A stretch of 64,000 nt of DNA from Senegalimassilia anaerobia JC110 (GTDB lineage Bacteria; Actinomycetota; Coriobacteriia; Coriobacteriales; Eggerthellaceae). The notes under the pieces are model-generated. The model was not told the origin of the DNA, did no database searches, and was given only the letters and a program-made list of their open reading frames with translations. Location of the stretch: positions 210,018 through 274,017 of the forward strand of contig NZ_HE611016.1 in the NCBI RefSeq assembly GCF_000236865.1, in the 5' to 3' direction. A program made the position numbers and the translations under genes. This document shows, piece after piece, positions 18,601 through 20,105 of this stretch (within the stretch, counting starts at the first letter, position 1; every line of letters starts with the position of its first letter).

Positions 18601-20105
18601 GTCCGGTCAACATCGGCACCGCCGTCGGCATCATCGCCGCACAGTCCATCGGCGAGCCCGGCACGCAGCTGACCATGCGTACGTTCCACGCCGGCGGCGT
18701 TGCAGGCGAGGACATCACGCACGGCCTGCCGCGCGTCCAGGAGCTGTTCGAGGCCCGCAAGCCTAAGGGCCAGGCAGTGCTGGCGGAGATCTCCGGCACG
18801 CTGCAGATCAGCTCCGACAAGAACACGAAGACGCTGACCATTCACGACCAGGAAGGCAACTTCCGCGAGTACGTGGTGTCGGCCCGCGCCACCATGCTCC
18901 CGGGCGTGGAGGATGGCTGCCAGGTCCGCATCGGCCAGCAGCTCACCAAGGGTTCCGTGAACCCGCACGACCTGCTGCGCCTGACCGACCCGAACACCAC
19001 GCTGCGCTACATCGTGGCCCAGGTTCAGGACGTGTACGTGTCCCAGGGCGTTGACATCAACGACAAGCACATCGAGGTCATCGCGCGCCAGATGCTGCGC
19101 AAGGTGGCCGTGCTCGATGCCGGCGACTCCGACTTCCTGCCGGGCCGCCAGGTCAACCGCTTCGAGTTCGAGAACGTTGCCAACGAGCTCATCGCCGAGG
19201 GTAAGAACCCGCCGGTGGGCCAGCCGCTGCTGCTGGGCATCACGAAGGCTTCCTTGGCCACCGATTCGTTCCTGTCCGCCGCATCGTTCCAGGAGACCAC
19301 GAAGGTGCTCACCGACGCCGCCATCGAGGGCAAGGTCGACCACCTGGTGGGTCTGAAGGAGAACGTCATCATCGGCAAGCCGATTCCGGCTGGCACGGGC
19401 CTGAAGCGCTACCGCGACGTCGGCCTGACCTACAAGGGCAAGCCCACCGCTCCGGTCGAGGGCGATATGCTGCCCGATTACGCTCCGGACGACCTGCGCC
19501 AGATCGAGGACCTGCTGCCCCAGCCCCAGGATTGGTCGCTGGATGGCGAGGGCTACCTCAACATGGGCGGCAACTACGGCAGCTACTACAGCGGCCTGTC
19601 CCTGGGTCATCGCGGCCCGCAGCTGTCCGATGAGGACTCGCGCCTGTACATCTACGACGATCTGGGCGTGTCGCAGCGCTGGGCGAACAAGTTCAGCGAG
19701 GCGGGCATCGAGACCGTGGCCGACCTGGTTGGCCACACCGAGGACGACCTGCTGCGCATCGAGGGCATCGGCGCGAAGGCCATCGAGGAGCTCAAAGAAG
19801 GCCTCGAGCAGCACAACCTGCTGCATGTGATCGAGGACGACCTGAGCGCATCCTCCGATGACATGAGCCAGCTGCTCGACATGGTGTTCAGCCCGGATGA
19901 CACCATCCTCATCGGCGGCGATGAGCCGGCCACCTTCAACACCGAAGGCGAGGACATGCTGGGCGAGGCGCTGCCGCCGCGCAGCTATCACCGCAACCTC
20001 GAGGAGCTTGACGAGCTTCTGGGCAACGGTGCATTGGGCTTCGGCCTGACCAGTCGTAAGGACGAGGAAGAGTCCAACGAGGCTCAGGCTAACGGCGAGG
20101 AATAA
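15693..20105 (+). CDS. rpoC: RNA polymerase beta' subunit with alpha-CTD-like C-terminal domain
   Basis: Catalytic beta' subunit, 1470 aa. The N-terminal zinc site uses C63, C65, C78 and C81. The active-site motif NADFDGDQM is at 537-545. The second zinc-site cysteines are in [11 protein letters not shown], and the trigger-loop/bridge region has GARGN and [16 protein letters not shown]. Unusually, after the normal end (about residue 1310) comes a helix-hairpin-helix segment, [19 protein letters not shown] and on to [15 protein letters not shown] (about 1320-1374). This resembles the C-terminal domain of the alpha subunit. An acidic tail of about 95 residues follows. The start codon abuts the rpoB stop, so translation is coupled. 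Confidence 0.98.

Follow-up and report, generated by a model that had tools for sequence, protein, structure and literature searches.

The window analyzed here, i.e. the whole stretch of 64,000 nucleotides at positions 210,018 to 274,017 of contig NZ_HE611016.1 of Senegalimassilia anaerobia JC110 (class Coriobacteriia, order Coriobacteriales), carries rpoC, the gene for the RNA polymerase β′ subunit, at 15693..20105 on the forward strand. The gene is one open frame of 1470 amino acids (aa) with Pfam Rpb1 domains 1-5 and a match to NF011498, and rpoB (12138-15692) immediately precedes it. The usual Rpb1 domains and TIGR02386 cover the RpoC core as far as residue 1241; the stretch studied here, window 19641-20102, corresponds to RpoC residues 1317-1470. 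It holds a domain like the C-terminal domain of the α subunit (αCTD), at residues 1318-1376 (19644..19820, +), recognized by a Pfam match at 1322-1372 (19656-19808) and by its predicted fold, and then an acidic tail at residues 1377-1470 (19821..20102, +). About 40-70 linker residues lie between the core and the αCTD-like domain.

Scanned against the whole RpoC, PF03118 (RNA_pol_A_CTD) matched residues 1322-1372 at 37.2 bits (E 2.5e-9; curated cut-off 23.8), and against residues 1305-1385 alone it scored 43.1 bits (E 3.4e-11). The initial annotation's claim of an α-CTD-like domain after the conserved end of β′ proved real, at about residues 1318-1376; since the RNA_pol_A_CTD profile scores above threshold, the objection that no such match exists fails. 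Genome-wide, PF03118 gave two matches at E ≤ 10, RpoA at 98.4 bits and RpoC at 42.6 bits, and all matches with E below 0.01 in a PDB sequence search were RNA polymerase α subunits. The generic helix-hairpin-helix (HhH) profile HHH_5 (PF14520; cut-off 27) scored lower, with 27.3 bits on the whole protein, 10 bits below PF03118, and 29.9 bits on residues 1305-1385; that is, it does not fit better than the αCTD. In PHROGs a single family, itself of unknown function, matched weakly.

An AlphaFold model of residues 1290-1470, with 38 named relatives as input, had an overall mean pLDDT (predicted local distance difference test) of 65 and a pTM (predicted template modeling score) of 0.38. The domain was predicted to be folded rather than disordered (block-mean pLDDT 81-89, model residues 21-90), with its helices in αCTD order, and the linker start and most of the tail were low (45-64). 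A further model, of residues 301-1470, built to look for docking of the tail motif on the β′ body, was of low quality (mean pLDDT 52; domain 70-78, most of the tail below 50). The top Foldseek match to the predicted domain was a Thermus αCTD (E 3.2e-4), one of two matches at E ≤ 0.001. VIA-align, which re-scores Foldseek's own list and whose Z values under 8 can reflect a common arrangement, gave Z 10.1 (root-mean-square deviation 1.5-1.7 over 67 residues) between the predicted model and α chains 8y5l_A2, 8y5t_A2 and 1z3e_B, the chains at this score being E. coli and B. subtilis αCTDs; the first listed chain from outside RNA polymerase entries was Dmc1, at Z 7.2. We take this likeness as convincing, because Z 10.1 spans the whole small domain and the sequence matches agree with it. 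Judged by profile and predicted fold, the β′ C-terminal module is a homologue of the αCTD; it is not RpoA, because it sits in RpoC, and RpoA is a separate gene with a CTD of its own.

For its distribution, 149 genomes of the class were scanned for PF03118 (3 without a match) and for the RpoC end. All 68 genomes of order families f1-f3, which from their named relatives appear to be Eggerthellaceae, Atopobiaceae and Coriobacteriaceae, had at least two PF03118 matches and gave alignments that run from query position 2 to at least 274 and so take in the domain (169-227). RpoC tails were read in 90 of these 149 genomes (loci L002 and L033 are one gene), and 89 complete tails were counted, leaving out L064, which is cut by a contig end; families f14, f21 and f22 (G083, G137, G145) fall outside the count, with no convincing RpoC match in their assemblies. 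The αCTD-like domain was present in 73 of the 89 tails, spanning 16 families, and two Cys3His finger-like repeats took its place in the other 16, from three families (f5, 11; f16, 4; f17, 1); none of the 89 had both modules or neither. Four of the 73 domain calls were weak with our own profile (L065, L103, L107, L119; E above 1e-3), with the equivalents of E. coli R265 and E302 aligned. A scan of named genomes gave 332 relatives of the domain, and the titles of the best 80, our named set, included Eggerthellaceae, Atopobiaceae/Olsenella, Coriobacteriaceae, one HGW-Actinobacteria metagenome-assembled genome (MAG), and some uncultured, unclassified or other genera. The fusion is not peculiar to this genome and occurs in the majority of the class's sampled families. 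Set beside its counterparts in other Coriobacteriia and beside the organism's RpoA, the domain again supports the α-CTD-like reading. As separate observations, two f2 genomes (G044, G056) had three PF03118 matches each instead of the usual two (RpoA and RpoC), and contig C24 of the MAG G040 had a second RpoC-like frame of 1315 aa, maybe contamination.

The finger-like repeats occupy the C-terminal 60-70 residues of their RpoC (L068, L070, L071, L075, L077-L082, L085, L087, L088, L091, L094, L097) and have the form C-x(n)-C-x(n)-C-x2-H, twice. Among three repeat tails scanned, two matched Pfam DUF5763 and the third zf-TRM13_CCCH, all above cut-offs, and the six Cys and two His were invariant across nine finger-tail sequences. 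A post-core linker motif of pattern AP..L...LP, at residues 1260-1276 of the window protein (19470..19520, +), was found in some form in 82 of the 90 class tails. Together with the counts of the αCTD and finger tails themselves, this shows that the class shares one linker carrying either of two end modules. Across the 198 phylum genomes searched, frames longer than 1000 aa with the finger pattern (E ≤ 1e-4) were confined to three f5 genomes. Finger-profile matches of any kind were seen in 67 of these 198, Eggerthellaceae-like genomes included; all but the three RpoC were in other frames, many of them about 370-550 aa long and matched over one finger (e.g., L216). These other frames are a possible source of the RpoC finger tail.

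The acidic tail exists, although the initial annotation's figure of about 95 acidic residues did not hold: there are 94 residues, of which 25 are D/E and 4 K/R. Its conserved motif, at about residues 1389-1403 (19860..19901 for residues 1390-1403, +), was defined by alignment of order sequences, in 39 of which, the window included, D1390, S1392, L1394 and MVFSPD (1397-1402) are invariant. The nearest named tail aligned, from Eggerthellaceae bacterium UBA5906 (L131), shares 93% identity with the window tail. All 40 order sequences have 84-100 residues after the domain with a VF-S-P-D type motif among them; outside the order the domain ends at most 9 residues from the C-terminus, and a related motif precedes it in 32 of 33. 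A similar motif is found in 7 of the 11 f5 finger tails and in none of the five f16/f17 finger tails. A frame error or assembly artefact as the origin of this protein end was rejected, as the domain-bearing tail reads uninterrupted to its stop codon in all 80 of 80 named loci and in 73 genomes of the class. On the strand opposite rpoB and rpoC runs an open frame of 2668 aa (11985-19991, -); it looks like a by-product of G+C-rich codon use in those two genes. Just 3′ of rpoC, at 20119-20146 (+), the G+C-rich inverted repeat GGGGCGCGC, ATC, GGCGCGCCCC is followed by T's and would, judged by eye, be an intrinsic terminator.

Within the domain, alignment places R1329 at E. coli position R265 and W1330 at position 266 (19677..19682, +), and the second hairpin (19770..19790, +) holds G1360 (G296), K1362 (K298), A1363 (S299) and E1366 (E302). 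We take the αCTD DNA-face residues other than R265 to be N268, C269, N294, G296, K298, S299 and E302. The window module keeps N268, G296, K298 and E302, and has C269→K, N294→G and S299→A. Across the class the R265 equivalent is present in 73 of 73 domains and the W266 equivalent in 67 of 73, both being found in 81 of 81 sequences when the named set (best 80 of 332) is taken with the window; K298 is retained in 66 of the 73, and E302 is invariant in all 73 domain tails, with most other positions drifting. Of the 56 positions aligned in the 33 sequences from outside the order, nine are conserved in 31 or more (G261, R265, G274, L289, G294, G296, A299, E302, L307), with R265 and E302 as the only charged ones. 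Published studies of the αCTD are consulted for the roles of such residues: R265, N294 and K298 are given as minor-groove contacts with UP elements (PMC5101437), and R265, again a minor-groove contact, and E273 are described as surface-exposed, with S266 buried (PMC3828302).

The CTD of RpoA itself is intact in the phylum, with R265, N268, C269, G296 and K298 in 66 of 66 RpoA sequences, S299 and N294 in 65 and E302 in 64 (31 of the 66 are best-scoring loci and biased to typical ones). Because RpoA thus keeps its own CTD, the β′ module is an addition. Constraint on it was gauged from 81 sequences (80 named loci, the best 80 of 332, and the window), whose mean pairwise identity was 0.90 in the domain, 0.69 in the linker and 0.51 in the far tail. 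The ratio of nonsynonymous to synonymous substitution rates (dN/dS), pooled over 400 of 1762 eligible pairs that are not independent, was 0.09 for the domain, 0.35 for the linker, 0.17 for the tail motif and 0.51 for the far tail; the 26-residue 'core' segment with 0.32 lies at the edge of the alignment and does not make a true control for the core. The domain is under purifying selection.

Beyond the class, RpoC matches were found in 105 of 110 genomes of a phylum sample, some covering part of the gene only; those from outside the order stop at about residue 1245-1280, and alignment beyond query residue 1280 was seen for the 8 order members alone. The fusion appeared in one of the 110 (G189). 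Each of the 11 genomes in its family, f47, matches PF03118 a second time, in a frame of 1438-1516 aa; the 50 genomes of G189's class outside f47 show no second match. All 11 f47 tails were read (L123, L217-L226); they have, for example, DLPTYVHSVL where the αCTD has DLSVRSYNCL, and they retain G296, K298, S299 and E302 in 11 of 11. The linker motif of our class was found in none of 10 f47 fragments. Elsewhere, extra PF03118 stretches occurred in G253, G207, G155, G246 and G256, and among these only L126 (G155) aligned to RpoC, over the domain alone (1322-1376), those of the other four giving no alignment to RpoC; G170, G173 and G199 had extra PF03118 matches in frames of 574-681 aa, apart from their RpoC matches.

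In a tree of the domains, which rests on 53 columns and has long branches, the RpoC domains form one clade, separate from RpoA domains including that of E. coli (97.7/98), and this clade holds with f47 added (91.7/100). That the module was recently copied from the RpoA CTD of the same organism is not supported, since the RpoC domains cluster apart, on those same few columns and long branches. For a single fusion speak the tree, which joins f47 with the class, and the G294 common to both (11 of 11 and 73 of 73); for separate histories speak the absence from f47 of R265, W266, A299 and the linker motif, and its keeping of S299. There may have been two separate fusions, which long branches pull together in the tree.

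As to function, the initial annotation had proposed that the module could bind a factor or touch DNA or activators close to the RNA exit side, which is compatible with the sequences at hand. We put at about even odds the more definite proposal that it forms a third αCTD-like, probably DNA-contacting arm, tethered at the β′ C-terminus near omega. On its linker the module would contact DNA through the R265 face; as a third arm besides RpoA's two it would touch AT-rich upstream promoter DNA or, alternatively, DNA around the moving polymerase, and the conserved acidic tail would act as a regulatory or factor-docking element. The retained R265 and E302 lean towards DNA contact, and a finger-like replacement module is what would be expected if the β′ C-terminal site holds nucleic-acid binders. 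In E. coli, omega holds on to β′ at both of its ends, and transcription is activated from an upstream operator when a DNA-binding protein is tethered to omega (PMC7700224). An omega gene is present in our genome (30.3 bits, cut-off 26), so the module could plausibly reach upstream DNA.

Several points weigh against such an arm. The other substitutions lean away from DNA contact: N294→G in 73 of 73, S299→A in 72, C269→K in 66, K271 retained in none of the 73, and N268 retained in 48 (40 of 40 in the order, 8 of 33 outside it). The net charge of the module is -8, that of the RpoA CTD -1. In f47, all 11 sequences have Tyr for R265 and Ser for N268, which implies that a β′ CTD can persist lacking both residues, and since E302 is kept there without R265, E302 may be structural. 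Moreover, the placement near upstream DNA, plausible as it is, is taken from E. coli.

A different reading of the same fold, which we consider possible though doubtful, would make it a surface on which a transcription or translation factor specific to the class docks, with R1329 and E1366 serving as interface or structure. The net charge, the lost N294 and S299, the conservation of the module without R265 in f47, the conserved linear motif in the flanking acidic tail, and the binding of the αCTD to Spx (as in PDB 1z3e) and to activators all suit this reading; yet R265 and E302 are the sole charged positions conserved in at least 31 of the 33 diverse sequences, and the alternative module of the sister families is finger-like. 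That the two modules exclude each other at a single site (73 tails vs. 16, none with both) would also suit a cap at the RNA exit side that guides RNA or DNA during elongation or termination, without a promoter-specific role, HhH and fingers being interchangeable non-specific grips; we think this unlikely, given that the HhH version keeps the minor-groove residue R265. Still more improbable to us is a generic HhH, or an assembly or stability appendage of β′, unrelated to the αCTD and with no DNA role. HHH_5 does match, barely above its cut-off, Dmc1-type HhH proteins occur in the fold list, and the G294 of both β′ groups is shared with the HhH turn and not with α. However, the αCTD profile scores higher, and the nearest structures and PDB sequences are α subunits; with the αCTD ahead on profile scores, PDB sequences and fold alike, generic HhH identity is disfavored. 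Taking the lineages together, we tentatively entertain a wider idea, that the β′ C-terminus is an exchangeable docking site into which different lineages have plugged an αCTD copy with the minor-groove arginine, a copy without it, or tandem fingers. Such a site is comparable to that where the Rpb1 tail leaves Pol II.

The αCTD, which binds the minor groove of UP elements and touches activators or sigma, is one of the main partners of UP elements and of activators in bacteria. A third copy, sited elsewhere on the enzyme and present in most of the families sampled, would, if the DNA-contacting arm is real, change promoter finding and activation in this class, to which the gut and mouth inhabitants Eggerthella, Adlercreutzia, Olsenella and Atopobium belong; polymerases with the R265-type module would read promoters by three αCTD-like arms, and the E. 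coli rules for UP elements and activators would not carry over. This bears on building expression tools for these bacteria or reconstituting their RNA polymerase, and the αCTD/finger exchange is a natural experiment on the purpose of the β′ C-terminus. The usual αCTD-like end, with fingers at that place in some relatives, hints at an overlooked addition to the transcription machinery. Among the papers listed by full-text searches of one open-access library, where most subscription papers are absent, no title or opening of an abstract spoke of the fusion or of the finger exchange.

The architecture is nonetheless already in databases, because NCBIfam NF011498/PRK14906 models RpoC almost end to end: it spans the window protein including the tail (model 1-1458 of 1459, 2908.7 bits, cut-off 1437). 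It is a naming model whose text gives only DNA-directed RNA polymerase subunit beta', and CDD reportedly called PRK14906 a β′/α domain fusion. Compared with the RpoA αCTD (PF03118), the window module is alike in profile, predicted fold and the equivalents of R265, N268, G296, K298 and E302; unlike it, the module is attached to β′ rather than to the α N-terminal domain, is acidic, is followed by the 94-residue acidic tail, and carries S266→W besides the changes at 269, 294 and 299. The DUF5763-like repeats of f5, f16 and f17 share with it the C-terminal place, the class and similar linker motifs, but are an unrelated module to which our own αCTD profile gives no match. A parallel in placement is the omega-λ cI chimera of E. 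coli, which is likewise a DNA-binding unit tethered at the omega/β′ C-terminal side and acting upstream (PMC7700224); it differs from the β′ module in being artificial, carried on omega, and a sequence-specific repressor.
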